From: a virus
IMG/VR virus record: IMGVR_UViG_3300035670_000223
Coordinates: 1-60,740 of that record
Direction: 5' to 3' (one strand)
DNA: 60,740 nt
This document shows, one piece after another, positions 18,981 to 35,253 of the stretch. The stretch's first letter is position 1. Each line of letters begins with the position of its first letter. The position numbers and the translations under genes are program-made. Below the pieces are notes generated by a model, which had not been told where the DNA came from, made no database searches, and saw only the letters and a program-made list of their open reading frames with translations.

Positions 18981-21413
18981 GTGGCAGAAAGAATTGTAAG
19001 TCCTGGTGTATTTTCAAGAGAAATTGATTCGTCATTTCTCCCCCAAGCAGTGGCGCAAATTGGTGCTGCTTTAATAGGACCAACAATAAAGGGTCCTGCG
19101 TTTGTTCCAACACCGGTGGGATCATTTAGAGAATTTGTTACCAGATTTGGTGGATTTTCTGAAAATACATACCTACCATATACAGCAAAATCATATTTAA
19201 CTAACGCACCAAGTGCTACGATTGTTAGAGTATTAGGAACTGGTGGGTATGAACTAACTAATCCAATTGCTATTGTTGCAAATTCTGGAAGTGAATCACA
19301 TTTAATTTCAATGCTTCACCCAACATTCGTTGTTACAACAGATGGGTCTACTCCTTTATTTGAAGAATCCACTTTTGTAGAAGGCACAACCGCAGGATCC
19401 TTTGTATTAACTGTATCGGGTTCATTCGTAACTGATACGTCTACATTTACAAATGCCACAGATAAAAACGGAACAGCTTATTCAAGTTCAATCAATCCAA
19501 ATAGTACAGATTATATTGGAAAGCTATTTGGATACAGCCCAGTAGGAACCAGCCCCGTTTACAATTATTCATTGTTTGCAAACAAAGCAGCGGCTTTAAT
19601 TGAAAGCGGATTCGATTCAATTACGATTGAAACTGGATCTGCACTTGATAACTTTGATTTTCAAAATACATATCTACCAGCAGAAACGCCATGGATAACA
19701 TCCCAAAAAGTAGGTGGACAAACAATGAATTTATTCAAGCTTGTTCATCTTTCTGATGGTTCTGCCACAAATATGGACGTGAAAATAGGAATCGCGAATG
19801 TGAGAGCAGCCGGAACAATCGCTGGGTCACAATATGGGCAATTTGATGTTATAGTACGATATGTAGATCAAAGTGACATAAAAAATGCTCCGTTCACACA
19901 CGAAGATGATGATTTAAGGCCAGCAATAGTAGAACAGTTTACTTGTAATTTAGACCCAAATTCACCGCTCTTTATAGCAAGAGTTATTGGAGACAGATAT
20001 TATTCCGTAAATGAAGCTGGTGAAGTTAGTGTGTTGGGAGATTATCCAAACAAATCTAATTTTGTGCGTGTTCAATTAGATGAAGCGGTTAATAATGGTG
20101 CAATTGATCCATCGCTTGTTCCATTTGGATTTAGAGCATTATATAGCCCAATCCCATCTACGTTTACACAACCAGTTGCCGCAACATATGTTGCAGGTCA
20201 AACTATCGGTGGGACATATAATAAAAGAAAATATTGGGGATTTGATTTTGATTTCCAAAATACAGACAACGTAAATTATTTAGCACCGTTGCCAGTAAGT
20301 TCTCAATTATCAACCGGAAATAATGTTGATTTTGTTCTTTCCGATTACAGCCAATCACTTGGCGCGGCATTCCCATCAGCAGCATCACCATATACTGGAT
20401 CTATTGATTTAACATCGAACACATCATTAGATAGTAGAAAATTTATAGTTCCATTGCAGGGTGGATTTGATGGACAGAAGCCAAACCTACAGAAAAGAAC
20501 TGGTCAGTTTATAACAGCTGGAAATACGCAAGGATTTGATATATCATCAACATCCGCTGCTGGATATACCGCATACAAAAAAGCGTTAGACGCTGTATCA
20601 AATAAAGATGAATTCGATATCAATATGGTAATAACACCGGGTGTCTTACATTCGTTACATTCAGCAATAACAACATATGCGAAAGATATAGCAGAAGAAC
20701 GAGGAGATACTTTTTATGTTATGGACATTGCTGGATATGATGCATCAATAACAGATGCAGTTAGCACTGTTGCTGGTTTTGATTCTAGCTATACTGCAAC
20801 GTATTACCCATGGGTAAAAATAGTAGATACTGATAGAAATAAGCCAGTTTGGGTACCACCATCTGTAGTGCTCCCCGGTGTAATTTCATTTAGCGATAGA
20901 ATTGCAGCTGAATGGTTTGCACCTGCTGGTTTGAATCGCGGTGGTTTAACTGAAGTTATTCAAGCAAAATCAAGACTAACCCAAACACAGCGAGATAGTC
21001 TTTATGAAAATAGGATCAATCCAATTGCATCCTTCCCGGGTCAAGGAGTTTGTGTATGGGGGCAGAAGACACTACAGGGAAGACCGTCTGCATTAGACAG
21101 AATAAATGTTAGACGATTGTTAATAGCCGCTAAGAAATTTATTGCAGCTTCTACAAGATTCTTAGTGTTTGAACAAAATACCGCAGCAACACGAAATAGA
21201 TTCTTAAATATCGTAACACCATATTTAGAATCAATTCAACAACGTCAAGGATTATTTGCATTCAGAGTTATTATGGATGAAACAAATAATACTCCGGATG
21301 TAATCGATAGAAATATTATGTATGGACAACTGTATTTACAACCAACCCGGACGGCTGAATTTATTATACTTGATTTTAATATTCAACCAACTGGTGCAGA
21401 ATTCCCAGAATAA
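18981..21413 (+). CDS. 18: Tail sheath protein, T4 gp18-like
   Basis: An 810-residue contractile sheath subunit, longer than T4 gp18 (659), with the extra length in variable surface domains between about residues 90 and 500. The N-terminus (RIVSPGVFSREIDSSFLPQA, residues 4-23) is the family opening. The conserved C-terminal core has WFAPAGLNRGGLTEVIQAKS (about 650-670), NPIASFPGQGVCVWGQKTLQ and the final strand region FRVIMDETNNTPDVIDRN. The start is GTG, with AGGAG 6 bases upstream. It precedes the tube gene, as in T4. Confidence 0.95.
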   Translation: MAERIVSPGVFSREIDSSFLPQAVAQIGAALIGPTIKGPAFVPTPVGSFREFVTRFGGFSENTYLPYTAKSYLTNAPSATIVRVLGTGGYELTNPIAIVANSGSESHLISMLHPTFVVTTDGSTPLFEESTFVEGTTAGSFVLTVSGSFVTDTSTFTNATDKNGTAYSSSINPNSTDYIGKLFGYSPVGTSPVYNYSLFANKAAALIESGFDSITIETGSALDNFDFQNTYLPAETPWITSQKVGGQTMNLFKLVHLSDGSATNMDVKIGIANVRAAGTIAGSQYGQFDVIVRYVDQSDIKNAPFTHEDDDLRPAIVEQFTCNLDPNSPLFIARVIGDRYYSVNEAGEVSVLGDYPNKSNFVRVQLDEAVNNGAIDPSLVPFGFRALYSPIPSTFTQPVAATYVAGQTIGGTYNKRKYWGFDFDFQNTDNVNYLAPLPVSSQLSTGNNVDFVLSDYSQSLGAAFPSAASPYTGSIDLTSNTSLDSRKFIVPLQGGFDGQKPNLQKRTGQFITAGNTQGFDISSTSAAGYTAYKKALDAVSNKDEFDINMVITPGVLHSLHSAITTYAKDIAEERGDTFYVMDIAGYDASITDAVSTVAGFDSSYTATYYPWVKIVDTDRNKPVWVPPSVVLPGVISFSDRIAAEWFAPAGLNRGGLTEVIQAKSRLTQTQRDSLYENRINPIASFPGQGVCVWGQKTLQGRPSALDRINVRRLLIAAKKFIAASTRFLVFEQNTAATRNRFLNIVTPYLESIQQRQGLFAFRVIMDETNNTPDVIDRNIMYGQLYLQPTRTAEFIILDFNIQPTGAEFPE

Positions 21414-21469: not shown

Positions 21470-21958
21470 ATGGCCGAACTTTTAAGCCCTACCGAAATTA
21501 TGTTTACTGCCTTTGAGCCCAAGGTATTAAATAGATTTATAATGTATATCGAAGGTGTACCTGCATATTTGATAAAGGCAGCACAAAGACCAAATATTAA
21601 TTTCGGCAAGGTTACAATGGAGCACATTAATGTTAAGCGTCAATTAAAGGGTAAAGGTGAATGGCAAGATTTGCAGATAAAATTATATGATCCGATTGTA
21701 CCTTCGGCGGCGCAAGCAACATTAGAATGGATTAGATTATCACACGAATCGGTAACAGGTAGAGATGGTTATGCAGACTTTTACAAAAAAGATATAACAT
21801 TCAATACACTTGGCCCGGTCGGTGATAAAATAGAAGAATGGACAATAAAGGGTGCATTTATCAAAGAAACAAACTTTGGCGATTTTGACTGGGGCACCGA
21901 AAGTGCAGTTGAAATTACATTGACGATATCATATGATTATGCAATATTGCAATTCTAA
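21470..21958 (+). CDS. 19: Tail tube protein, T4 gp19-like
   Basis: A 162-residue tail tube subunit, matching T4 gp19 (163). Typical features are an N-terminal beta strand region (NRFIMYIEGVPAYLIKAAQR, about residues 21-40), the loop with QLKGKGEWQDLQIKLYDPIV, and the C-terminal alternating strand ESAVEITLTISYDYAILQF. The AAGGAG site is 6 bases before the ATG, suggesting high expression. A GC-rich terminator follows, ending the sheath/tube unit. Confidence 0.93.
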   Translation: MAELLSPTEIMFTAFEPKVLNRFIMYIEGVPAYLIKAAQRPNINFGKVTMEHINVKRQLKGKGEWQDLQIKLYDPIVPSAAQATLEWIRLSHESVTGRDGYADFYKKDITFNTLGPVGDKIEEWTIKGAFIKETNFGDFDWGTESAVEITLTISYDYAILQF

Positions 21959-22072: not shown

Positions 22073-25000
22073 ATGAAAATATTCGGAAATACCAATATTG
22101 ATGGACGACTTGTAGCTGATGCTGCATCTTTTGGTACATTTGGATTAAAAACTGGTGAAACAATACCAAATGTGTTTATAGCTGGTACCGATACACAAGA
22201 CTTCAGAAGCGTTCAGGGGAATCGCTCAGTCATTGCTCAAGGACAATATGATTATATAATAACATCACAAGATGTTGGTGGTGTCAATGAGCCTTCTTTT
22301 AAACAAACTGAAGATTTATTACAGGGCTCTGTTATGGGATACCGCGTACAACACGTGGATTCTAAAACAGTATATACATTAGTAGTTGAACGTAATAAAC
22401 CTGCAAATGTAACTGCATCTTTTATAAATGTTTCAGAAAACGGCGGTATAAAATTTGAACGTGCGTATTCAATAGGGATTACAGCGTTTGATATGGAATG
22501 GGTCAATGCAGATGAGGCATATGTAGTTGGTGGAAAGGTTACACCTGGTCTAGACAAAGTTTTTTGGGAAAAATTCAATAAATACGGCCTGCCAGTTATA
22601 ACTACTGCTTCAAACGCATCGAGTAAAACAGCTGTGGTTTATAAAAAAGAGGCAAATTCAAATAATTTTATACCTTGGGGTACATTCCCGGCAAGTTTTT
22701 TTAATGATTGTGCAACGGCAATTGCTGTAAATAAAGATGACAACGATATAGTTTTAGTTGGAACGGAGAATGGAAAAATATACAAATCTGCAGATGGTGC
22801 TCTTACTTGGCAACTTGTTTATAATGGTAGTAATTGCATTAATAAAATTAAGTTTGTAACTGGAAATTCCGCTCACGTTTGGGCAGTTGGTACTAATCAA
22901 ACATTGTTGAGGTCAACATTGGCAGGTGAAGCTGATACATGGGAAACCCTCTCTACCTCAGATTCGAGCAATATAGTTAAATATTATAAAGCAGCAAATG
23001 ATACACGTGTATCAATTGAACGTTCAAAAGCATTCAATGATATTTTATTACCAAATGTTGATAACGCAATCGTAATTGGTGATGATTTTAAATACGTTCT
23101 ACAAACATTAAATTCAAGCCAAGAAGCAGCTGAAGATATCGTTTGGAAAAAAAATCCAACAAATATATTTGCGGATTATGAGCCTATTACAAAAATAAAA
23201 TCCATAATAGTAAATACAACAGCGTACTATGCAGCAATATCGAGAGATAAACTTTTTTATACATCTGATATTAAATATGATAGGCTTTCATCAGACGCAT
23301 CAAATATTAATCTAGCTGGTTTAGACTGGAAAGAATATGCATTAACTGGGGATGGTGTAACCGGAGATGCCATTGATTTAGTTCTAGTAACAGATGAAAA
23401 CCCAACTGTAAATAACACGCAAGGATATGCTTTTATATTAACTACAAATGGATTGTATGAATTTGATTTTTCTACTAATAGATTAAGCCCAAAAAGACAA
23501 TTTCCATCGTCATTTACTTCATCACCATTGGGATTGGTTGCTCATAGTTACAGGGAAATATATATAACTGCTGAAAATGCAAAGATTCTAAGAGGAACAA
23601 AATTTCAATATTCATTTGAGAACAACTTTACATTTGTAGAAGAAACATCATCATTATCAACTGAAATTTTAACAAGCATAAATACTGCAAAAACAGGTAG
23701 AATTTTTGCAGGGACAAACGATGGTATTTTGATTTTTAAGGATACTGGGTCAATTATAGATGAAACAACATATTCAACTGATCCAGTCACATGGACGCAA
23801 GCTACATCAAGCCCAACGGGATCTGCACATACTATAGTACAATTACAAGCTATAGATAATGATAAAATATATGCGTTAATAAAGGATACTGGAACTTTAG
23901 ATACAGTTTTATTTAGATCGGATAATTCTGGAAGCAGTTGGTCTCAGTTGTATGCATATCCAGAGAACGTATCACAGTTTTTTGTTTATGATGATACACC
24001 ATCTAATGAAGAGATATACGCATTAAATCAAGATGGTACACTTATATATGCAACAGCAAATTCATTTTCTACAGTTACACAGTATGCAATTTCATCTGAT
24101 GATAATTCTAATTTTGAATCTATTGAGTACGATTCTACTCAAACGTCAAAAATATTTTTATTGACGGCTAGAAATGGTATTTCAATGACTGATTTACAAA
24201 CCGTTAAACGTGCTGGTCCGTTTGATAGCCAATGGACATTGTGTGCTATAACAGGTGAAGATGGAAATGATTTTTGGATCGCAGGTGGAACAACATTTAC
24301 AGCAAAAAGAGGAACACCAGCATTAAATGACCTTGGTTCAGAACCACTATTATTAAGATCAAGTGCAGTCCCGATTTCTCAAGGGCAAGGGGGTGAAATA
24401 TGGGAAAATTATACAGATAGAATTGAACCAGATGAACCACTGGTAACAGGTACTTCAGGTGGCGATTTTACTCTTACTAGTTTAAGTGAGGGTACTTACA
24501 TCGTTGAAGAAAGCAAAGACATATTTAATGTTTATTCTACAGCGAATGAAGGAGCATCATTTACAAAAGTAAATTCTAATCTTTACAGAGAAGATAACAT
24601 ATACCCCGGTAATATGGATGGTATACAAAAATTAAGATTTTATGATAATAAGTTTGGTGTCGCAGTTAGTGATATATCAATAGATGAAACATTAAAAACT
24701 GCAACTAATATAAACACTGACCCAAATACAACATCTAAAATTTCAATTACAAATGACGGTGGTGTTACTTGGAATTATGCATTTTTACCACTTGAATATA
24801 ATTTCACATCTGTATTTATAACCACAAAATCCTTAAATTTAAATACAAATCAAGATGAATATCAAATATTCGCAACGGCATATCCAACTGATGATTCATC
24901 AGACGGTGTAATATTTAAATCAGACACCTCTGGTCTTACATGGCAAATAATTTATACATTCCCACAGTCAACATCAGGATTATCATATAGGCCCGCTGAT

Positions 25001-28000
25001 ATCTTTTTTGTTAATGATTCAACCGGTTCGGTTTCAGTATATGGAAATATCAATGGAACACCTACCGTTGAGGGGATATATAAAACACAAAATGGTGGAA
25101 ATTCTTGGTCTTTTGTTACTATATCTGATTTTGCAGCTTCAAATACCAAAGGACATTTACAATTTATAACATCAAGAAAAGGGTATGTTGGTGGTGCACA
25201 CGGCACAGACAAATATTCTGGCTTATATAAAACTATAGATTCTGGAGATTCTTGGACTAGGATTTTAACACCATATTCTTCATCTGATAATAGTCCAATA
25301 ACTGCCCTTCACTTTTTAGATGAAGCGGTTGGTGTTATAGGTGTTGGCAATGAAATATGGAAAACAACAGACAGTGGATCATCGTGGTCAAGAACACACC
25401 AATTGAGGAGAATTGTTGGTAGAGATTTTGTAGGAGTCAGTGGTTCAATAAATGATATTAAATTTAATTCAAACGGAACACTTGGATTCGCAGTTGGATT
25501 TTATGCATCTACTAATGATTCTACACGGGGTGAGCATTTTGTACTTAAATCTATAGATTCTGGTTCATCGTGGACTGAAGTCGATTCCAACCATTCATAT
25601 GTTGATTTGGAATTTGATTTTGATAATAGTAGAAATTTAGTAGGACAACCGTCAAACCTATATACGATTGCTTTTGCAGAACAGGTAATATTGGCCGAAG
25701 AAAGTCAATCTGTAGTAGAACCAGATCCCGAAGAACCAAGACCAACGGATGACTGCTTTGGAAGTAAGTTCATGAGTGCATCGTATTATAACTTTGAAAA
25801 TTTTGCATATAAGTGTACTCCATCTGGATCTAGGCCAATATATCATCCAAATATATCTCAGAATATTGGATTAGGACGGGGTATATTTGGTCAGAGAACA
25901 TCTATTGACAGAGCTGTATTAAAAAATACAATCCGATATGGCGCAGCTCTTGGTGTAAATGCATTAGGAAAAGCAGAAAACAGTAAGGGCGATACTGCTG
26001 CTGGCTTTGGTGCAATGGATCAGATGGAAAATACTACAAATAACGTAGCTATTGGATATAAGGCATTGAGTTGGAACCGTCCCGATGCAAATTTAACCGG
26101 TGGAACAAATACAACAAGCACTGCTGGTGTAAATTCTCTTATATTTGCATTAAGAAATAATGCCGCATTGCTAGTATCAGAAAATGGTGGTAGATATTGG
26201 TCAGTAGATAGAACACAGCTGGCGGGCTATGGAACTGGATCGGAAAATTTAGAATTTAGAAAAATATACAAAGTAAGCAATGATGAAGTGCTTGTATTGG
26301 CAAATTCTATATCAGATGATCCGGGAGAAAAAACAGTAATTGCAAAATATAATAAAAAAGCAGATGATTATAGTGTAATATTTACTTCATCAATAGATAG
26401 AATCGATGAACTTGATGTCTTAACACCGTCGATTGTATATGGAATTGATACAAGACAGAAAAAATTCTTCAAATCTATATCAGGGGCAACTGGTTTTGAA
26501 ACTGGAAGTATTTCGGATACAGCTGGTAATTTTTTAAGATCCGTTAATATGTCATCGCAAACAGTAGGATTTATTGTTGGTTCCAAAATTTGGAAATTGC
26601 AAGATGGCAGTCAATTAGAATGGGAAACATCAAGTTATGCAGGTGAGCATATCATTAACGCTATAGACTATGTATCACCGGGAACACGCACATGGGTTGC
26701 AGTTGGTAATAGTGGATCTATTTATAGAACTACAGATAGAGGAGAGACTTGGTCACATATACAACCCAACATAACAACTCAGAATTTAAAGGACGTTAAA
26801 TCGGTTGGTAATAGGGTCATTGCAGTTGGCGATAGTGGAAGTATCCTTGTTAGTAATAATTCCGGATTAACATGGGCAAGTGGGCAATTTGTTCAGGATA
26901 ATGTTGAATATAAAACATTATCAAACATTACCATATTGGACAAAGACTCAATAATTGTTAATCATGATTCTGGATTAATAAAAACATCAGACGGTGGACG
27001 AAACTGGTATGATTTGGAAATACAAGATTTAGCTGAATACTTGTATGGAAGCTTTACCGGATCCGAAGATTTCCCAATGTTAATAAAATCAATTACAAAT
27101 ACAAGATATTCAGTTGATAGGGCGTTTGCACCTAGCAGTGATTTATCTATTATAAATCCATCTGCAGTACGACCAGTCCCTGAACAGATTGCCCAAACTC
27201 GTACTGTTGATGAAAACGTAGCAGTTGGTTCCTATAGCTTATATGCTACGGCAAATTCATCAAAGATGGTAGCGATTGGAGCGAACGCACTCAGAAGCGT
27301 ATCTTCTAATGAACAGGGGAGCCCTCCAAATTCTGGCGAGACAATTTTTTCAACAGCATACGATTTTGTTAGCAATATAACTGCTTCGGGTCTTCCAGCA
27401 ACATATGGTCAAATTGCAATCGGAGCAAACTCACAACAAAAATCAGATAACTCATTTTTTAATACTTCCGTTGGCTATGCTTCATTATATGAATTGGATA
27501 ACTCATCGTATAATACTGCAATTGGATTTTATAGCCAACATTTTAGTAACAATAACAGAAATACATCGCTTGGTGTTTGGGCACTTGGATTAAATGCTGA
27601 TTTAGGATTATCGGATGGAATACTATCTACGGATTCTACAGTAATTTCAAGTTCATTCTTTGGTGGAAGTGATAATATTGCAATTGGCTATAAAGCTTTG
27701 TTGAACAATGTTACTTCACACAGAGTATTTGAAATGAGAAGAGCCGGTACCGATGACCCATATGTTGGTCTGGCTTCACTGGGAAGTAGAAACATTGCAA
27801 TAGGAAATAATGCATTTTTAAATTCAAATGGTTCAGTTGATACAATAGCGATAGGACACGGCGCAGTTGAAAGACGCGGTAGTGATCTAACAGATTCTGT
27901 ATTTGTTGGGAATTTTGTTGGAGAGAATTTTGGACCATTAACCGGATCATATTATTCCAGTTCATTGGAAAATGATTGGAGATTAACTCAAACTGTAGCA

Positions 28001-30856
28001 ATTGGTTCTAGGGCGTTGCAAAATCATTTAGGTTATGATATTGTAGCTGTTGGTGCTAATGCATTGCGTGGCACATTGAGTGGATCAACCGCAGAAGAAC
28101 CAAGTATTAATACATTTATAACACCAGAGTTTGGTGTTTTATTGATGGGATATTTTAACAGTTCCATATTAAGTACAGTTGATACATCGGACTTTTCTAA
28201 AAATGAATGGAAAATTCCATTATATAAAAAGAAAAGTGCGTCCGATCAAACTGAATATTTTATATACGATGAATTAACATCACCTGCGGGTGCTGATTGG
28301 ATATATGCAGATGAGGTACCAACCCCTCGATCTGTGGCGATTGCCAGTAAAGATGTTGCATATGGTGTATTTGCTCTTCCAATAAATAAAGGTAATTTTA
28401 AGGGCAGCTTATACCCAGTAATAATGAAAACATCAACACTGTCTACCGCTGGTACTAATCGTGTAGTATGGAATACAGTTCAACATGTAGATGGACTTAA
28501 TCAACGTCATAAATTAGCACCAAGGCCGGGCGTAATTTATGATGCAGGTGCATTAAAATCAGGAGCAATGGTACTAAAAGCACCGGATAAAAATACCCTT
28601 TATCTTTTAATACGCCAGGGCACCACTCAAAGCGGAATAAATAGTGGACGTTTAAACAGTAAAAGTTTCATATTAAAGTCTGGTGTTGGTCAATATCTTT
28701 TAGGCGGAGAAGGACCGGGATCACGCTTTGAAACTATCTTAACTGGTGAATCTGAAAATAGTGGTGTAGTTACACAATCTATATTTAGAGATATGGCATT
28801 TCCAACCACAGATGATGGTATGGTGGTTGGTAATATTACCCAGTGGGTAAATTCATCCGGTTTCTTATTAACAAATATTCCAACATATGCACGTACAACT
28901 GATGGCGGTTCTACGTGGGAATCGGGAAGTATTGATTCAACCGTATCGGGATCATCCGTTAGCATTAATGGTTTATGGATGAATGAAAGTGCATCCGTTG
29001 CGTATGCAGTTGGCAATTACGGATCAATTTACAAATGGACAAATATTGGTGGATGGGAAAAGAAACTTGGAGCAAGTAGCGATGTTAATTTTAATGGAAG
29101 TGTAAATGATTCATTCTGGTCAAATGCCACATCAATGAGTTTGAATGATATTCCTGTAACTGTGTTAGAGTATTTTCAACAAGAAGCAAACAAATGGCAA
29201 ACTCATGTTGCATTTTTTGATGTTGATTTTGCCAGCGATTCGGTAGGATATGCAATAGGCAAATACCCCGCTTTCATTCAGAAAGCCGTGGGTGGGGGTG
29301 GGCCCGTTGGTTATAACCAATTTATAGCTAAAACTACAGATGGTGGTGATACATGGGAATATCAAGCACTTGATATATTACCAAATCCATGTGTAAACAA
29401 AAATTATGGAGCACAACGAGGTACAGCTGGAGAGAACAAAGCACAGCCATTTGGAGAAATAACCGTTATTGATGAAAATACCGTAATCATTGGAATGAGT
29501 TATGGTACAGTTGTATATACACATGATGGTGGAACAACTTGGTCATATGATGATAAAAATGCCTTTGGCACTGCTGGTAGAACAAATGGTGCGTGTGGTT
29601 GTGACCCATATCCAATATTTTGGTGTAGTGATTATAAGCAATTTGCAGCGGAAATCACATATAGCTCATCTAGCATTTTACCACGTGAAATAACTGAAAC
29701 AGTTACAGTTGGGTCGGATGCCCAACCAAAACAAACAACCGTAACAAATAACGTTGCAGTTGGATACAAGGTTCAGTTTGAATCATCTGGAAGTGCTATT
29801 GACAGCGTTCAAATTGGATCACACGCTACATTAAGAGCAAATGAAATAGAAGATACTGTTGCCATTGGAAATGAAACATTACAATTGACACAGTATTCGT
29901 ATGGAACAACTGCGGTTGGAGCCGAAACATTATATACGTTAGAAGCTGATAAAACAAACCCACAATACCCAGCTCCAATAACAAATCAGATATATGCTTG
30001 GAATGCTGATTATGATTACTATACAAGTAGTAAATCAGAAATAAATACGGTTGTTGGACTGGGTGCCGGATACAGTTTAAAGATGGGCGGGTCTAACGTA
30101 TTTATTGGTCATAATGCAGGTATGTTTAATACCCCAAAAACACCTACATACGGCGATAATAATATCGTAATTGGAACAAATGCACAGAAAACAAATCCAA
30201 ATCAAATTAATCAAATTGCGATTGGAAATTATCAACACAATACTGCAGTTCTTTGGGGACAGCATAACGCAGCACAACCATGGATAGTAATGTCAGATGC
30301 ACGTGACAAAACGGATACGGGTTCATTTGCAACCGGTCTTACATTTATACGTGAACTGGATGTTAAAACGTTTAAGTGGGATGGTCGCTATAATTATCCG
30401 TCTGGATCTGATCCGGATGGAACGCATAAGCAGCCATCTAGTTCATTTGGATTTATTGCACAAGACATAGAATCCGCGGCTAATACAGCTGGGCTTGACC
30501 CAAGAGCATTTGTGGTGGACACAACAGGATCAAGTTCAGATGGATCTGGAAGTTTTGAACAGAAATTAATTGTTCCTGGAATGATTGATTTAATGGTGTA
30601 TAATGCAGTCAGGGAATTGGATACCACAATTCAGAATTCAAAATATGCAGCGTTTATTGGTGACGGTATAAACACATCATATACAGTTACACACAATTTG
30701 AATTCAACTGATATCATTGCCTCTGTATACGATACACAAAATGGTCCAAATACTATTGTGTATCCAACAATGTCAGTTAGTAGTTCAAATGATTTGGTTG
30801 TAACGTTTAATTCAGTTGCACTTCCAAGCCAATATAGAGTTATTGTAATGAAATAA
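22073..30856 (+). CDS. Giant tail fibre: propeller-type repeats, IG repeats and S74 chaperone
   Basis: A 2,927-residue protein, the largest in the window. Many repeats of the BNR/Ycf48 type (for example IYKSADGALTW, IWKTTDSGSSW, IYRTTDRGETW and IAKTTDGGDTW) occur in three blocks, at about residues 230-1200, 1345-1690 and 2020-2530. Between them are blocks of VAIGYKAL/IAIGNNAF beta-roll repeats, at about 1265-1345, 1705-2010 and 2555-2735. MSDARDK near residue 2741 starts an S74 intramolecular chaperone with the cleavage Ser. A final 65-residue beta segment follows. It is probably a trimeric receptor-binding fibre whose propellers bind glycans or surface proteins. The order resembles three fused copies of one module. 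Confidence 0.88.
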   Translation: MKIFGNTNIDGRLVADAASFGTFGLKTGETIPNVFIAGTDTQDFRSVQGNRSVIAQGQYDYIITSQDVGGVNEPSFKQTEDLLQGSVMGYRVQHVDSKTVYTLVVERNKPANVTASFINVSENGGIKFERAYSIGITAFDMEWVNADEAYVVGGKVTPGLDKVFWEKFNKYGLPVITTASNASSKTAVVYKKEANSNNFIPWGTFPASFFNDCATAIAVNKDDNDIVLVGTENGKIYKSADGALTWQLVYNGSNCINKIKFVTGNSAHVWAVGTNQTLLRSTLAGEADTWETLSTSDSSNIVKYYKAANDTRVSIERSKAFNDILLPNVDNAIVIGDDFKYVLQTLNSSQEAAEDIVWKKNPTNIFADYEPITKIKSIIVNTTAYYAAISRDKLFYTSDIKYDRLSSDASNINLAGLDWKEYALTGDGVTGDAIDLVLVTDENPTVNNTQGYAFILTTNGLYEFDFSTNRLSPKRQFPSSFTSSPLGLVAHSYREIYITAENAKILRGTKFQYSFENNFTFVEETSSLSTEILTSINTAKTGRIFAGTNDGILIFKDTGSIIDETTYSTDPVTWTQATSSPTGSAHTIVQLQAIDNDKIYALIKDTGTLDTVLFRSDNSGSSWSQLYAYPENVSQFFVYDDTPSNEEIYALNQDGTLIYATANSFSTVTQYAISSDDNSNFESIEYDSTQTSKIFLLTARNGISMTDLQTVKRAGPFDSQWTLCAITGEDGNDFWIAGGTTFTAKRGTPALNDLGSEPLLLRSSAVPISQGQGGEIWENYTDRIEPDEPLVTGTSGGDFTLTSLSEGTYIVEESKDIFNVYSTANEGASFTKVNSNLYREDNIYPGNMDGIQKLRFYDNKFGVAVSDISIDETLKTATNINTDPNTTSKISITNDGGVTWNYAFLPLEYNFTSVFITTKSLNLNTNQDEYQIFATAYPTDDSSDGVIFKSDTSGLTWQIIYTFPQSTSGLSYRPADIFFVNDSTGSVSVYGNINGTPTVEGIYKTQNGGNSWSFVTISDFAASNTKGHLQFITSRKGYVGGAHGTDKYSGLYKTIDSGDSWTRILTPYSSSDNSPITALHFLDEAVGVIGVGNEIWKTTDSGSSWSRTHQLRRIVGRDFVGVSGSINDIKFNSNGTLGFAVGFYASTNDSTRGEHFVLKSIDSGSSWTEVDSNHSYVDLEFDFDNSRNLVGQPSNLYTIAFAEQVILAEESQSVVEPDPEEPRPTDDCFGSKFMSASYYNFENFAYKCTPSGSRPIYHPNISQNIGLGRGIFGQRTSIDRAVLKNTIRYGAALGVNALGKAENSKGDTAAGFGAMDQMENTTNNVAIGYKALSWNRPDANLTGGTNTTSTAGVNSLIFALRNNAALLVSENGGRYWSVDRTQLAGYGTGSENLEFRKIYKVSNDEVLVLANSISDDPGEKTVIAKYNKKADDYSVIFTSSIDRIDELDVLTPSIVYGIDTRQKKFFKSISGATGFETGSISDTAGNFLRSVNMSSQTVGFIVGSKIWKLQDGSQLEWETSSYAGEHIINAIDYVSPGTRTWVAVGNSGSIYRTTDRGETWSHIQPNITTQNLKDVKSVGNRVIAVGDSGSILVSNNSGLTWASGQFVQDNVEYKTLSNITILDKDSIIVNHDSGLIKTSDGGRNWYDLEIQDLAEYLYGSFTGSEDFPMLIKSITNTRYSVDRAFAPSSDLSIINPSAVRPVPEQIAQTRTVDENVAVGSYSLYATANSSKMVAIGANALRSVSSNEQGSPPNSGETIFSTAYDFVSNITASGLPATYGQIAIGANSQQKSDNSFFNTSVGYASLYELDNSSYNTAIGFYSQHFSNNNRNTSLGVWALGLNADLGLSDGILSTDSTVISSSFFGGSDNIAIGYKALLNNVTSHRVFEMRRAGTDDPYVGLASLGSRNIAIGNNAFLNSNGSVDTIAIGHGAVERRGSDLTDSVFVGNFVGENFGPLTGSYYSSSLENDWRLTQTVAIGSRALQNHLGYDIVAVGANALRGTLSGSTAEEPSINTFITPEFGVLLMGYFNSSILSTVDTSDFSKNEWKIPLYKKKSASDQTEYFIYDELTSPAGADWIYADEVPTPRSVAIASKDVAYGVFALPINKGNFKGSLYPVIMKTSTLSTAGTNRVVWNTVQHVDGLNQRHKLAPRPGVIYDAGALKSGAMVLKAPDKNTLYLLIRQGTTQSGINSGRLNSKSFILKSGVGQYLLGGEGPGSRFETILTGESENSGVVTQSIFRDMAFPTTDDGMVVGNITQWVNSSGFLLTNIPTYARTTDGGSTWESGSIDSTVSGSSVSINGLWMNESASVAYAVGNYGSIYKWTNIGGWEKKLGASSDVNFNGSVNDSFWSNATSMSLNDIPVTVLEYFQQEANKWQTHVAFFDVDFASDSVGYAIGKYPAFIQKAVGGGGPVGYNQFIAKTTDGGDTWEYQALDILPNPCVNKNYGAQRGTAGENKAQPFGEITVIDENTVIIGMSYGTVVYTHDGGTTWSYDDKNAFGTAGRTNGACGCDPYPIFWCSDYKQFAAEITYSSSSILPREITETVTVGSDAQPKQTTVTNNVAVGYKVQFESSGSAIDSVQIGSHATLRANEIEDTVAIGNETLQLTQYSYGTTAVGAETLYTLEADKTNPQYPAPITNQIYAWNADYDYYTSSKSEINTVVGLGAGYSLKMGGSNVFIGHNAGMFNTPKTPTYGDNNIVIGTNAQKTNPNQINQIAIGNYQHNTAVLWGQHNAAQPWIVMSDARDKTDTGSFATGLTFIRELDVKTFKWDGRYNYPSGSDPDGTHKQPSSSFGFIAQDIESAANTAGLDPRAFVVDTTGSSSDGSGSFEQKLIVPGMIDLMVYNAVRELDTTIQNSKYAAFIGDGINTSYTVTHNLNSTDIIASVYDTQNGPNTIVYPTMSVSSSNDLVVTFNSVALPSQYRVIVMK

Positions 30857-30913: not shown

Positions 30914-30946
30914 TAAAATAAAAAAAGTTTATTTAAAGGAGTTTTT

Positions 30947-31783
30947 ATGAGTACTGAAAAACAGTTAACTGATGAACAATTAAAAGAATTAGCACTTCAA
31001 AATTATAAAACAGAAGAAGTTAAAAGTTATAATTTTCCAACAGAAACGGTGCCATTACCATCAAGGGGACTATTGTATCCCAAAGATCACCCGTTGGCAT
31101 CTGGATTTATTGATTTAAAGTATATGACTGCACGGGAGGAAGATATTTTAACATCTGCAAATTTAATAAAACAAGGGACTGTTATAGATAAATTGTTGCA
31201 ATCACTTATAGTTACTCCTATGAGATATGACGATATATATATAGGAGATAAAAATGCAATCATGGTTGCTGCAAGAATTTTGGGGTATGGAAAAGATTAT
31301 GATGTAGAAATAGATGATCCGTTTTCACCGGGAAATAAACAAAGAGTAACAATTGATTTACAAGAAATTCAAGACAAAGAAGTTAATTGGGAAATGATGC
31401 CTGAAAATGAAAATAGATTTGAATTCACATTGCCAAACTCAAAAAGAAAAATTACATTTAGATTGCTCACACATGGAATTGAAAATGAAATATCGCAGGC
31501 ATTAAAAAATAAAAGATTAAAGAAAAACGATGGCATAGATAGAGAATTTACAACACGATTAAAGTATGTGATAACATCAGTTGATGAAGAAACTGATAGA
31601 CAATATATTGATAATTTTGTTGACAATGAACTGTTTTCACTTGATTCGAGAGCATTGCGAGATTATATACAAGAAGTATCCCCAGACATAGACTTAAAAT
31701 TTGAATTTATGTCAGATATAACAGGGGACTCCATGTTAATGGACGTGCCGATGGGGACCTCCTTTTTTTGGCCTAGGGGTTAG
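30947..31783 (+). CDS. 26: Baseplate/tail assembly chaperone, T4 gp26-like
   Basis: A 278-residue protein. The stretch ETVPLPSRGLLYPKDHPLAS (about residues 33-52), then FIDLKYMTAREEDILTSANL, is the hallmark of the T4 gp26-type baseplate family, including proteins that act with the tape measure during tail assembly. The reading frame ends with SFFWPRG shortly after a run of seven T. A second frame, without a start codon, continues with clearly coding sequence up to the tape measure gene (separate entry). That arrangement is typical of tail assembly chaperones with a frameshifted long form. A strong AAAGGAG site precedes the ATG. Confidence 0.82.
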   Translation: MSTEKQLTDEQLKELALQNYKTEEVKSYNFPTETVPLPSRGLLYPKDHPLASGFIDLKYMTAREEDILTSANLIKQGTVIDKLLQSLIVTPMRYDDIYIGDKNAIMVAARILGYGKDYDVEIDDPFSPGNKQRVTIDLQEIQDKEVNWEMMPENENRFEFTLPNSKRKITFRLLTHGIENEISQALKNKRLKKNDGIDREFTTRLKYVITSVDEETDRQYIDNFVDNELFSLDSRALRDYIQEVSPDIDLKFEFMSDITGDSMLMDVPMGTSFFWPRG

Positions 31784-32006
31784 CCACAAGCCCCTTATAC
31801 ACAAGGAAATTTTTCAGTTAGTATTTTATACTAAAGGTTCATTTCCGTGGGAACATGTATACAACATGCCAATTTTTTTAAGAAAATTTTATATAAAAGA
31901 GGTGGAGCAGGCATTTGTTGACAGAGCAAAAGCAATAGATGAAGCAACAAAAGGCGTTAAAAAATCTTCAAATTCTACGTCAAAACCGGGAATTTCGCCT
32001 AAATAA
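31770..32006 (+). CDS. Frameshift extension of the gp26-like chaperone (+1 frame)
   Basis: After the seven-T run at 31763-31769, the +1 frame reads GLGVSHKPLIHKEIFQLVFY, then TKGSFPWEHVYNMPIFLRKF and a Lys/Ser-rich tail, ending at TAA 32004-32006. The text looks like real protein: aromatic, helical and typical of T4-type assembly factors. The frame has no ATG, GTG or TTG before the conserved part; the first ATG is at 31866, deep inside. It is therefore expected to be made as a fusion to the upstream protein by a +1 or -2 shift, giving roughly 350 residues. A single-base error in the T run would also create this picture. Confidence 0.65.
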   Translation, partial: GLGVSHKPLIHKEIFQLVFYTKGSFPWEHVYNMPIFLRKFYIKEVEQAFVDRAKAIDEATKGVKKSSNSTSKPGISPK

Positions 32007-32058: not shown

Positions 32059-35000
32059 ATGGCAACTAGCGAAGATTTACAAAAACAGAAAAAAGCTTTA
32101 GAAAAATTGGTCAAATTGAAAGAACAATTTGCTGAAATAGATTTTTCTACATCGTCTGCCTCTGCCCAAAAATTAAAAAATAATATAGATAAAGTTACTG
32201 AATCCTTAGTTAAAATGGGAATGGCTGAGGAAAGGATTGACGCATTTTATAAAGCATTTGTAAAGGCGAATGCTTCTGTAAATGATATATCAATTAGTTT
32301 AAGCGGTAATTTACTTAAAAATATAAACAAGCTTAACGAAAATATTTCAGAGGGTGTTAAACAGTTTTCAACACCTTTAGAAGATTTTAAAGCAGGTGCA
32401 GAAAACATAATTGATTTATTACAAAATACAATTAAAAAATCAGCAGATTTAGAAACATATGCGCTAGAAAGACGTAGAGAAAATACACGCGGATTTGTAG
32501 AAAAGTCAATTAAATTAACATCTGATTTATCTAAAGCATATGATAATCTAATAAAGAATGAAGCCAATTTAGGAACTGCCAAATTTGCCAATTTAAACGT
32601 TGAGCAGGAAATTGCAAACACGCTTCTTTATATAAATGAATTAGATAAAATGAAGCTGCAACTTGCAGGCGGATATTATAGTAGTTTGAGAATGCAAGCA
32701 ACTACTGTTTTGGAAATGCTAAACGATATAACTACATTGAATAAGGTTCATAGAGCAAACCACGATTTAGCAAAAGATGCATTGGAAACAGAGCGTGAAC
32801 GTTTGCAATTAGAAAAAGAAATTGCAGCCGAAGAAAAAAAAATGCAACAAGAAAAAGAAAAATTTGATCAAAAGCAAGAAAAAATGGATCGAGAACTAAG
32901 AGCAAGAGAATTGAATCGGGTCTTTGGTCCAGTGTTAGCTGAAATAGCTGCATTAGAAAAGCTAGAAGAAGAGAGAGAAAAAATTTATGAAAAGCGAGAA
33001 AAAATAGATCGAGAACGAAGAGCAAGAGAGTTGAACCGTGTTTTCGGTCCAGTATTAGCTGAAATAGCTGCATTAGAAAAGCTAGAAGACGAAATAGAAA
33101 AATTTAATCAAAAACGAGAAAAAATAGACCGAGATCAGAGAGCAAGAGACTTGAATCGCGTTTTTGGTCCATTGCAGCAAAAATTAAATGCTGAAGAAAA
33201 AATGCAAGAGGAATTAAATAAGTTACGAGAAAAAGAAGAGGAAAAAGCCAAACAAGCATATGACAACTTCTTTAATAAAGCAATATCAAAAATGCCGCTT
33301 AGTGGTATACTTTCTAAAACAGCAGCGTTGGGTGCTGTTGCGCAAATGTTATCATTAATTGTTGGTGGGATTCTTTATTTACTTACCAAATGGGATTTTT
33401 TAGTTTCTAAATTTGCAGAAAAACTATCTATAGCACGTGCACAGGCCGAAGCAACATTAAAAGTTGCAGGCGATTTGGCTTCTAAATTTAGTCTAATAAA
33501 TTCAAATATGGAGCAAGTCGCTATTGCGATTGCTGAAGTTGTTGAGGGGTTGGGTGGAGCGGATATAACAACAGCGTTGATTTCAAATAATCGATTTGTA
33601 GAACGGTTGACTCAAGGTGCCACTGTATTGAGTGATACATTTGGATTAGCTGGAAAAGAAATAGCTGGAATGGTGGATGCATCGACCGCAATGGGAGTTT
33701 CGTTATCAAGTAATACCATAATGGCTACTGCCATGTCTAAAGGTATTATGAGTGTAAACAAATTGATGCAATCACTTGCTAATTTATCTCCAAAAATTTT
33801 AACGGGGTTTAAGGGCTCAAATTCACAGTTAATATCCATGGTTACAAAAATGAAATTACTTGGAGTTGAAGCTAATAATGTTGTATCTGCTAATAATAAG
33901 CTATTAGATATTGAAAGTTCGATAACAAATGCCTTTGAAGCACAGGTTGCAACTGGGGCGCAAATAAACATAGATAGGCTAATGGCGTTACAGATGTCAG
34001 GAAAATACAGCGATGTATTGGATGAACAACTTAAAACATTACAGCAAAGCGATTATTTAAATAGATCACCACTAGCACAACAATTAATTGCAGAAGGTCT
34101 TGGATTAGATGCCGAAACTGCATCACAGATGATGCTCAGAAATCTTTTAATGGAGAGAGTGGGTCTAACTGATGAATTAATTGCAAAAAGACAACAAGAA
34201 GGAAAGCTATTAGAAAATGACATAAGACTTGCCGAAAAACAAGGACGAATTAGTAAAATTGAAGCCGATAGATTAATGGACATTTCTAAAGAATATGACA
34301 GTAAAACTATTCAAGAAAAATTTATACGTGCTCTTAATGAATTTACAGCTGCGTTAAGTTCTACACTTGGTCCTTTAACAGACATATTGCGCACCTTAGC
34401 ATCTGGAATTAATTCAATCTCACAATCCATTGGCGGATTGACGTATGGCCTCGGAAATGTTGGCACTGGTATAATGTCTGGAATTGCAGGTATTGGTCTA
34501 GCGGCTTCTGTTATTTTATTAGCTAAAAAAGGTATTGGTGCAGTTAGGGGCATGGCAGCGGTATTACGGGGAGGTGCCGGGGGAGGAGTCGGCGCAGCAT
34601 CAACTGCAGCAGGCGCAACTGAAGCAGCTGCACAAGCAATGACAGGTACGGGAACAGCAAAGGGAATTGGAACTGCAAGTAAATTTATGAAAGGATTAAA
34701 AGCAGGTGGTGTTCTCGGTGGGATAGCAACTGCTGCTGAATTTGGTGTGAATTTATCACAGGGGCAGTCATTAGGTGAAGCTGCTGGAAGAGCGGGACTA
34801 TCAGGGGGTCTCGGAATCGCGGGCGCAGCATTGGGATCATTAATACCATTGCCTGTTGTTGGAACACTGGCGGGTGGTTTCTTGGGTAGCGCATTGGGAG
34901 ATTTCATAGGAAATCAAATATATGGCAATCAAATGACGCCAGAAGATTCTGCATTTTTAGAATCAAACATATCTGCATATCAAAATGCAAATGCTGCATC

Positions 35001-35253
35001 ACAAGCGACAGCAACTACTATTTCATCCGAATTAATAAATGCTATAAATATGATGTCATCTAAATTGGATACTACAAATAGTTTGTTAAGTACAATGAAT
35101 AATAAGCAAACAGAAATTGCAGTTGAATTAGACGGTGAGCGTGTAGGAAAAGCAGTTATGAGTTATTCATCTGCCACAATGGATAGAAACAGAATTATAG
35201 GCAACAATTTTGGTGCCAATCGAGATCAATATTCAAATCGTGTTCCACGTTAA
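32059..35253 (+). CDS. Tail tape measure protein
   Basis: A 1,064-residue, helical protein in the position of T4 gp29, directly after the gp26-like chaperone. Residues 1-410 are coiled coil. They include a three-fold repeat of 40 residues (DRELRARELNRVFGPVLAEI and variants, DNA period 120 bases, from about 32881). Hydrophobic segments follow (about 420-450, and 795-960 rich in Gly/Ala), typical of tape measures that meet the host membrane. The length of the helical part sets tail length. No lytic transglycosylase or peptidase motif was seen. There is no clear Shine-Dalgarno before the ATG, so coupling to the upstream reading is possible. Confidence 0.82.
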   Translation: MATSEDLQKQKKALEKLVKLKEQFAEIDFSTSSASAQKLKNNIDKVTESLVKMGMAEERIDAFYKAFVKANASVNDISISLSGNLLKNINKLNENISEGVKQFSTPLEDFKAGAENIIDLLQNTIKKSADLETYALERRRENTRGFVEKSIKLTSDLSKAYDNLIKNEANLGTAKFANLNVEQEIANTLLYINELDKMKLQLAGGYYSSLRMQATTVLEMLNDITTLNKVHRANHDLAKDALETERERLQLEKEIAAEEKKMQQEKEKFDQKQEKMDRELRARELNRVFGPVLAEIAALEKLEEEREKIYEKREKIDRERRARELNRVFGPVLAEIAALEKLEDEIEKFNQKREKIDRDQRARDLNRVFGPLQQKLNAEEKMQEELNKLREKEEEKAKQAYDNFFNKAISKMPLSGILSKTAALGAVAQMLSLIVGGILYLLTKWDFLVSKFAEKLSIARAQAEATLKVAGDLASKFSLINSNMEQVAIAIAEVVEGLGGADITTALISNNRFVERLTQGATVLSDTFGLAGKEIAGMVDASTAMGVSLSSNTIMATAMSKGIMSVNKLMQSLANLSPKILTGFKGSNSQLISMVTKMKLLGVEANNVVSANNKLLDIESSITNAFEAQVATGAQINIDRLMALQMSGKYSDVLDEQLKTLQQSDYLNRSPLAQQLIAEGLGLDAETASQMMLRNLLMERVGLTDELIAKRQQEGKLLENDIRLAEKQGRISKIEADRLMDISKEYDSKTIQEKFIRALNEFTAALSSTLGPLTDILRTLASGINSISQSIGGLTYGLGNVGTGIMSGIAGIGLAASVILLAKKGIGAVRGMAAVLRGGAGGGVGAASTAAGATEAAAQAMTGTGTAKGIGTASKFMKGLKAGGVLGGIATAAEFGVNLSQGQSLGEAAGRAGLSGGLGIAGAALGSLIPLPVVGTLAGGFLGSALGDFIGNQIYGNQMTPEDSAFLESNISAYQNANAASQATATTISSELINAINMMSSKLDTTNSLLSTMNNKQTEIAVELDGERVGKAVMSYSSATMDRNRIIGNNFGANRDQYSNRVPR
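32881..33240 (+). repeat. Three tandem 120-bp repeats inside the tape measure gene
   Basis: Units begin near 32881, 33001 and 33121. Each encodes 40 residues with the core RARELNRVFGP. The first two are nearly identical at the protein level; the third diverges after that core. Confidence 0.85.

Follow-up and report, generated by a model that had tools for sequence, protein, structure and literature searches.

Organization of the locus

The window, by which we mean the entire 60,740-nucleotide stretch analysed here (a 60.7-kb record with a G+C content of 33%), derives from a phage with a contractile tail whose genes follow the order sheath, tube and gp26-like gene, all features described below being on the plus strand. 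The tail sheath gene (18981..21413; phrog_23, E 2.2e-75) and the tail tube gene (21470..21958; phrog_4542, E 5.9e-24) were assigned by PHROG matches. A spike-like ORF of 2,927 aa (phrog_4636; 22073-30856) separates the tail tube gene from the gp26-like gene, and in Microcystis phage Mel-JY01 and Flavobacterium phage immuto no spike-like gene lies between the gene in the tube position and the chaperone gene.

The gp26-like gene (30947..31783) is preceded by a Shine-Dalgarno-like AAAGGAG, read from the sequence at 30935..30941, and codes for a product of 278 aa that ends in GTSFFWPRG; on the basis of its ORF, a match to phrog_150 and an AF2 model, we refer to this product as TAC-N, the short form of a putative tail assembly chaperone (TAC). 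Close to the 3' end of the gene lies a run of seven T (31763..31769), read in the zero frame as TTT at 31763, TTT at 31766 and then TGG at 31769, after which the frame is closed by a TAG at 31781..31783. From its sequence and conservation, TTT TTT T is proposed as the site at which tRNA-Phe would slip by +1. The +1 frame is open from 31740, the preceding +1 stop being at 31737, to a TAA at 32004-32006, and from 31770 onward it contains 78 codons (234 bases). This segment, TAC-C (31770..32006, including the TAA), was recognized by its open frame, by purifying selection and by homology, and its joining to the upstream frame by frameshifting would give a predicted long form, TAC-NC, of 352 aa. 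In the window, the only ATG, GTG or TTG codons of this +1 frame are an ATG at 31866 and a GTG at 31902, both deep within the conserved domain. An ORF of 1064 aa (32059..35253) begins 52 bases after the extension stop; it is placed as the tape measure gene by position only and has no solid family match. The setting between tube and tape measure genes expected of a tail assembly chaperone is thus present, the tape measure end by position. The initial annotation had described a gp26-like frame that stops just after a run of seven T and a 78-codon +1 frame, lacking a usable start, that ends 52 bases before a long ORF, and all of its coordinates hold. Runs of at least seven T occur 14 times in the window, so that such a run is in itself common there and the unusual feature is its conservation in this register.

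Conservation of the frame relation

Relatives were gathered by tblastn and pattern searches of IMG/VR, genome contigs and phage isolates, and junctions were inspected directly in the first twelve relatives and then in 86 loci. The resulting set of 272 sequences comprises loci L001-L271 and the window stretch, with T4 the sole member that gave no match to the upstream domain. The first set served to build an extension profile, which was then run against all three forward frames of each locus. Among the 271 loci with the upstream domain, the extension was detectable in 258 (a count that includes the window and two copies of it), 7 run off their contig and 6 gave no match in the profile search (RM378, SP-15, BRock, L012, RAS14 and PA5oct). 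All 258 detectable loci carry the extension in the +1 frame and in no other, a result that is partly circular for the first set, since that set built the profile, but not for L099-L271. In RM378, Bacillus phage SP-15 and BRock, the frame assignment came from visual inspection of the open frame and not from the profile. The combination that marks a TAC pair, a conserved short ORF with a conserved extension in another frame, is therefore found throughout these relatives.

Once the two window copies and identical junctions are removed, 196 distinct junctions remain, the majority of them on viral contigs from metagenomes. In 193 of these the first Phe codon and the zero-frame stop are 6-8 codons apart, and this constancy of position indicates that the short product is kept. 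A long ORF was found at most 300 bases downstream of the extension in just 75 of 166 loci, and tight linkage to the tape measure gene is accordingly not general.

Several individual loci deserve separate mention. In L012 (the relative LR756511; 2001-2852), TAC-N ends well past the FF motif and a TAC-C-like ORF with an ATG start lies in the -1 frame, possibly an unshifted, two-gene state. Contig NHDW01000006.1 (305,838 bases, labelled Methylococcaceae TMED69) carries the tail locus twice (L110 and L111), in two copies about 280 kb from each other that show no difference over 3,972 bases; the contig looks like a circular jumbo phage genome that was binned as a bacterium. The WOR-3 MAG chromosome CP070664.1 (L109, about 2.766 Mb) likewise contains a T4-type tail locus whose chaperone gene has the same +1 layout, as either a prophage or an assembly error.

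Composition of the slippery site

UUU UUU U is present in 191 of the 196 distinct junctions, as seven T in 190 and as eight T in one. The initial annotation had pointed to related phages as a check on the run, and in them the seven T are conserved across independent contigs. Most junctions read TTT TTT TGG CCN (142/196, with CCT in 115, CCA in 25 and CCC in 2) or TTT TTT TAY CCT (48/196, with TAC CCT in 47 and TAT CCT in 1). The six remaining junctions read TTT TTT TTC CCT (L101), TTT CTA TTC CCT (L008), TTT CTT TGG CCT (L007), TTC TTT TAC CCT (L128, on the same contig as L084), TTC TTT CGT CCC (L009) and TTT TTT AGT ACC (L010). Both site codons are nearly always TTT, the first of them in 194 of 196 junctions, as compared with a usage of 1304 TTT vs 366 TTC for Phe elsewhere in these genes; when the junctions are clustered at 70% protein identity, 66 of the 72 clusters have the seven T vs 43.6 expected from codon use.

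The bases and codons around the run are constrained as well. A T directly before the run occurs in none of the 188 seven-T junctions with enough flanking sequence, vs 88.8 expected from codon use, and codons -10 to -2 show a milder T deficit or none; the -1 heptamer U_UUU_UUU thus appears to be avoided. On neither side of the run, in fact, is the flanking base ever T in the 188 seven-T junctions tabulated. Where Tyr follows Phe-Phe, it is encoded by TAC in 46 of 47 seven-T junctions with enough flank, vs 230 TAT to 38 TAC elsewhere, and TAC at this position also fixes the +1 codon (ACC). The codon that would occupy the A site is a sense codon, UGG or UAC, the former without a synonym and the latter the rarer Tyr codon, and in the seven-T junctions Pro always follows the Trp or Tyr. 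Re-pairing of the P-site tRNA one base downstream (UUU, then U or C) is possible near the zero-frame end in all 196 junctions; L103 was flagged in the scan, its TTT TTT TGG CCT lying just beyond the scanned range. A slip on the Pro codon was rejected, because the CCA junctions (25/196) would not re-pair.

The site departs from the lambda-type and prfB-type arrangements. A lambda-type heptamer X_XXY_YYZ with a -1 extension is absent, the extension being in the +1 frame and T never preceding the run in the 188 junctions, and the UGA found directly after the slippery codon in prfB has no counterpart here, the stop being 6-8 codons away in 193/196. No stimulator came to light: the A-site codons are sense codons, RNA folding of 94 of the 188 seven-T junctions in four folding windows gave mean z values of -0.8 to -1.1, weakly more stable than shuffles, and revealed no clear element, and an Rfam search of the window gave no match.

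The two protein domains

Several features identify the extension as a real protein domain. It is complete, with 61-97 codons, in 187 of the 188 seven-T junctions with enough flank. Over 398 pairs of 75-98% identity, the pN/pS of the +1 frame is 0.25, pN is smaller than pS in every pair and changes fall at +1-frame codon positions 1, 2 and 3 in proportions of 25/17/58%; between the window and L002 the corresponding differences number 9, 11 and 32. The +1 frame is under purifying selection. The conserved core of TAC-C reads roughly H..IF.L.Y.G.GGF....VYNMP..LR.FY. Pfam returned no family for either part and a PHROG scan of the window's own extension found none, while 3 of 29 TAC-C members matched phrog_634, 'baseplate hub assembly catalyst'.

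TAC-N of the window belongs to the T4 gp26 family by its match to phrog_150, 'baseplate hub' (E 3.6e-10, residues 26-260). An AF2 model computed from 31 sequences reached a pLDDT of 88.3, and its matches in BFVD included the SP-15 baseplate hub subunit and proteins named T4-like baseplate hub assembly. Foldseek against the PDB gave no match at E<=0.001 (E 0.87), and PDB sequence searches with both profiles returned nothing significant. Among 709 PDB chains aligned with VIA-align, the best, with Z 4.6 and an rmsd of 4.5 over 96 aligned residues, was the HK97 tail assembly chaperone 2ob9, followed by a chain at Z 2.0. The score of 2ob9 lies below the level for claiming a shared fold, and the resemblance of the modelled TAC-N to this chaperone is accordingly suggestive. 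The fused protein modelled without an alignment gave a pLDDT of 31.6, and an alignment that combined N with C fragments was likewise of poor quality.

Proposed mechanism and its alternatives

At the level of sequence, the comparisons show a constant relation between the two frames, a conserved site, purifying selection acting on the +1 frame, and homology of both domains to the cyanophage-type pair. We consider it probable that the frames are joined by programmed +1 ribosomal frameshifting, tRNA-Phe moving from UUU to UU(U/C), which would give the chaperones TAC-N and TAC-NC. In this T4-type phage with a contractile tail, the tail assembly chaperone gene would then yield two products from a single start. 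Most ribosomes would read UUU UUU UGG CCU AGG GGU UAG and release the short TAC-N, while a fraction would shift by +1 with tRNA-Phe on either UUU, where re-pairing one base downstream would be perfect. Short and long forms would both be made, apparently because some ribosomes skip one base forward at the U run, in a ratio that the frequency of the shift would presumably set. If the products act as chaperones in the manner of lambda G and GT, TAC-N would be expected to coat the tape measure protein, with TAC-NC bringing in the tube subunits.

The initial annotation had allowed for either a +1 or a -2 frameshift producing short and long chaperones, and the comparative data strongly support this proposal and favour +1. 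A Mu-like -2 shift at the same run, in which the tRNA-Phe of the second UUU would move back by two and insert an extra Phe (SFFFGLG), leads to the same frame, and the seven T permit it. It would also need the first Phe codon to be TTT, as it is in 194/196 junctions, a constraint that would not follow from +1 slippage at only the second codon; the conserved first TTT fits either two tandem +1 sites or a -2 slip. Slip directions can be judged by the rules of tRNA re-pairing, by which L084/L128 (UUC UUU UAC), GXN1 (UUC UUU CGU), BRock (CUG UUU CGC) and L008 (UUU CUA), all of which keep the frame relation, can re-pair only at +1, whereas L007 (UUU CUU UGG) allows +1 and, with wobble, -2. Furthermore, the second Phe codon is strictly TTT, although UUC would suffice for -2. 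Because some junctions permit +1 re-pairing only, and because two tandem UUU_U sites explain both of the kept TTT codons, we prefer +1 and regard -2, its main rival, as unlikely. It is also improbable, and distinctly more so, that RNA polymerase rather than the ribosome shifts, gaining or losing a U at the seven T so that some of the mRNA carries both domains in one frame. A conserved homopolymer of seven whose flanking bases are never T in 188 junctions would suit such slippage, but seven T is short for known transcriptional slippage, runs of this length or longer are common in the window, and the frame relation is kept where no long run exists (L007, L008, L128, GXN1 and BRock). The features tied to codon register, namely the exclusion of NNT before the run and the use of TAC in 46/47, point to decoding.

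The remaining alternatives dispense with frameshifting. TAC-C might be a separate gene with a coupled or non-standard start and never be fused to TAC-N, and in keeping with this idea, possible starts occur in the open +1 stretch of 108 of the 196 junctions (ATG in 48, GTG or TTG in 60), L012 has its own ATG-initiated ORF, and the deposited annotations of Mel-JY01 and RM378 show separate small ORFs. Against it, the positions of these codons vary, and the other 88 junctions contain none of the three (ATG, GTG, TTG) anywhere in the open +1 stretch, taken to 12 bases beyond the stop. A +1-frame stop precedes the run by at most 11 bases in 82/196 junctions. Only 14/196 have a Shine-Dalgarno-like 5-mer close to the junction, and both the conserved UUU UUU U register and the exclusion of T before it would be needless in a separate gene. 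A real start codon in relatives, which the initial annotation had named as evidence against its proposal, does not recur consistently among them, and we give a separate gene very little credence. Finally, a sequencing or assembly error could split a single gene, and a T run is a typical site for such errors. Many contigs and isolates, however, show the split, which recurs in 196 distinct junctions and has the stop 6-8 codons away in 193 of them; on these sequence comparisons the error reading is already refuted for the family. A programmed +1 frameshift thus remains our preferred reading.

A mirror image in cyanophage-type homologues

A T4 gp26 query reached cyanophages and other T4-type phages, and in S-CAM8, phiW-14, RL2RES, Va3, RAS14 and PA5oct a -1-frame extension lies behind U_UUU_UU(C/G/U). 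A -1 set was assembled from a scan with S-CAM8 gp26 together with the phage records L272-L276, for a total of 85 loci, of which 83 have the stop and 120 bases downstream and 66 are distinct. The -1 frame is open for at least 40 codons in all 66 of these cyanophage-type junctions and the +1 frame in none, and T_TTT_TT(C/A/G) is present in 65, the exception being Salmonella phage Mooltan. Profile comparison of the +1 and -1 groups aligned TAC-N over 208 columns, as far as the FF motif (prob 97.3, E 2.8e-11), and TAC-C over 52 columns (prob 96.3, E 1.5e-9). With both halves homologous, a single position in one gene would be shifted forward in one group and backward in the other, the U run being displaced by one base. 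The cyanophage-type system therefore shares with that of the window its TAC-N and TAC-C domains, the location at the FF motif and the U run, but differs in that the run, read against the codon frame, begins one base earlier (NNU UUU UUC) and the extension is in the -1 frame. A quick TAC-N tree requires at least two changes between +1 and -1, and the history of these switches is uncertain because the tree has long branches.

T4 itself has genes 26 and 51 as two separate genes on opposite strands, with gp26 ending in FFELL, but the window family resembles it through the match of TAC-N to phrog_150 and of some TAC-C members to phrog_634. The -1 TAC-C profile aligned with residues 207-244 in the C-terminal part of T4 gp51 (E 8.8e-4, prob 23%), the +1 TAC-C profile found nothing in gp51 (E 0.4), and the TAC-N profile of the +1 group gave a weak match to T4 gp26 (E 0.0099 over 18 columns). 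As these direct comparisons are weak or null, the link to T4 runs through the cyanophage group and phrog_150.

On balance, we lean toward an evolutionary scenario in which one family switched direction between -1 (NNU UUU UUC) and +1 (NNV UUU UUU U) through displacement of the U run by a single base at the same Phe-Phe codons, with the extension kept, and in which T4 abandoned frameshifting in favour of two genes. The +1 branch would then amount to a very large, naturally occurring class of +1 frameshifting at sense codons in bacterial phages, with tRNA-Phe on UUU_U/C.

Relation to known systems and implications

The -1 chaperone frameshift is the textbook version, and T4 is the textbook exception. 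G-T frameshifting is described as widely conserved in long-tailed phages 'except T4' (PMC5009743), and T4 gp26 and gp51 are both given as hub assembly chaperones in another source (PMC3004832). Like lambda G/GT, the window's gene would make a short and a long chaperone with a common N part by a shift near the 3' end, and it sits between the tube and tape measure genes; it differs from the -1 lambda system in its +1 direction, in the use of UUU_U on Phe codons instead of X_XXY_YYZ, and in belonging to the T4 gp26-type family. The initial annotation had also cited Listeria phage PSA as a +1 chaperone case, but the PSA +1 events, according to PMC5009743, concern capsid and tail-shaft genes.

A frameshift in T4-type gp26 had not been known to the initial annotation. 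This holds insofar as we found no report of a +1 site in T4-type gp26 in the open-licence literature searched; it does not hold for -1, as poly-T signals for -1 shifts in TAC-N of T4-like phages are described as known, citing Vladimirov 2022, in PMC12846349, which also lists a -1 GTTTTT in Vandenendeviridae. According to PMC10885494, again citing Vladimirov 2022, some T4-like phages instead encode the short form in one gene and the long, fused form in another, with no frameshift.

Forward shifts at comparable positions have been proposed elsewhere. For haloviruses of the HF1 group, PMC7230728 reports a putative +1 at TTT-CGC in chaperone genes, and a +1 shift is called very likely for HSTV-2 in PMC5009743. 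As in the window family, the shift would lie between two small ORFs ahead of the tape measure gene, and the HF1-group TTT-CGC is the same motif as the TTT CGC of BRock and near the TTT CGT of GXN1. These viruses are archaeal, in contrast, and the main motif of the window family is UUU UUU UGG/UAC. UUU_U is also used by a small minority of species in prfB, which encodes RF2 (PMC5009743). The prfB +1 shift is alike in that a P-site tRNA slips onto an overlapping codon, but in the window family the next codon is a sense codon (UGG/UAC) and not UGA, no Shine-Dalgarno-like stimulator was seen, and the product would be a tail-assembly protein and not an autoregulated factor. Judged by comparative sequence analysis, then, the window family evidently has a genuine and highly conserved +1 frameshift in a known kind of gene, and the literature searched offers no example of this direction or this site in the family.

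In phage tail assembly a central part is played by the short-to-long chaperone ratio that frameshifting sets, and T4-type phages, as sampled mostly from metagenomes, would appear to retain the frameshift, many of them shifting forward instead of back. Deposited annotations of this family miss the predicted long chaperone, showing either a separate small hypothetical protein or nothing in its place. The family also offers a natural experiment, in which, at the same two codons, a displacement of the U run by one base would select -1 or +1 shifting, and comparison of the -1 and +1 members would reveal what sets the direction of the shift and why a sense codon in the A site (UGG/UAC) suffices.
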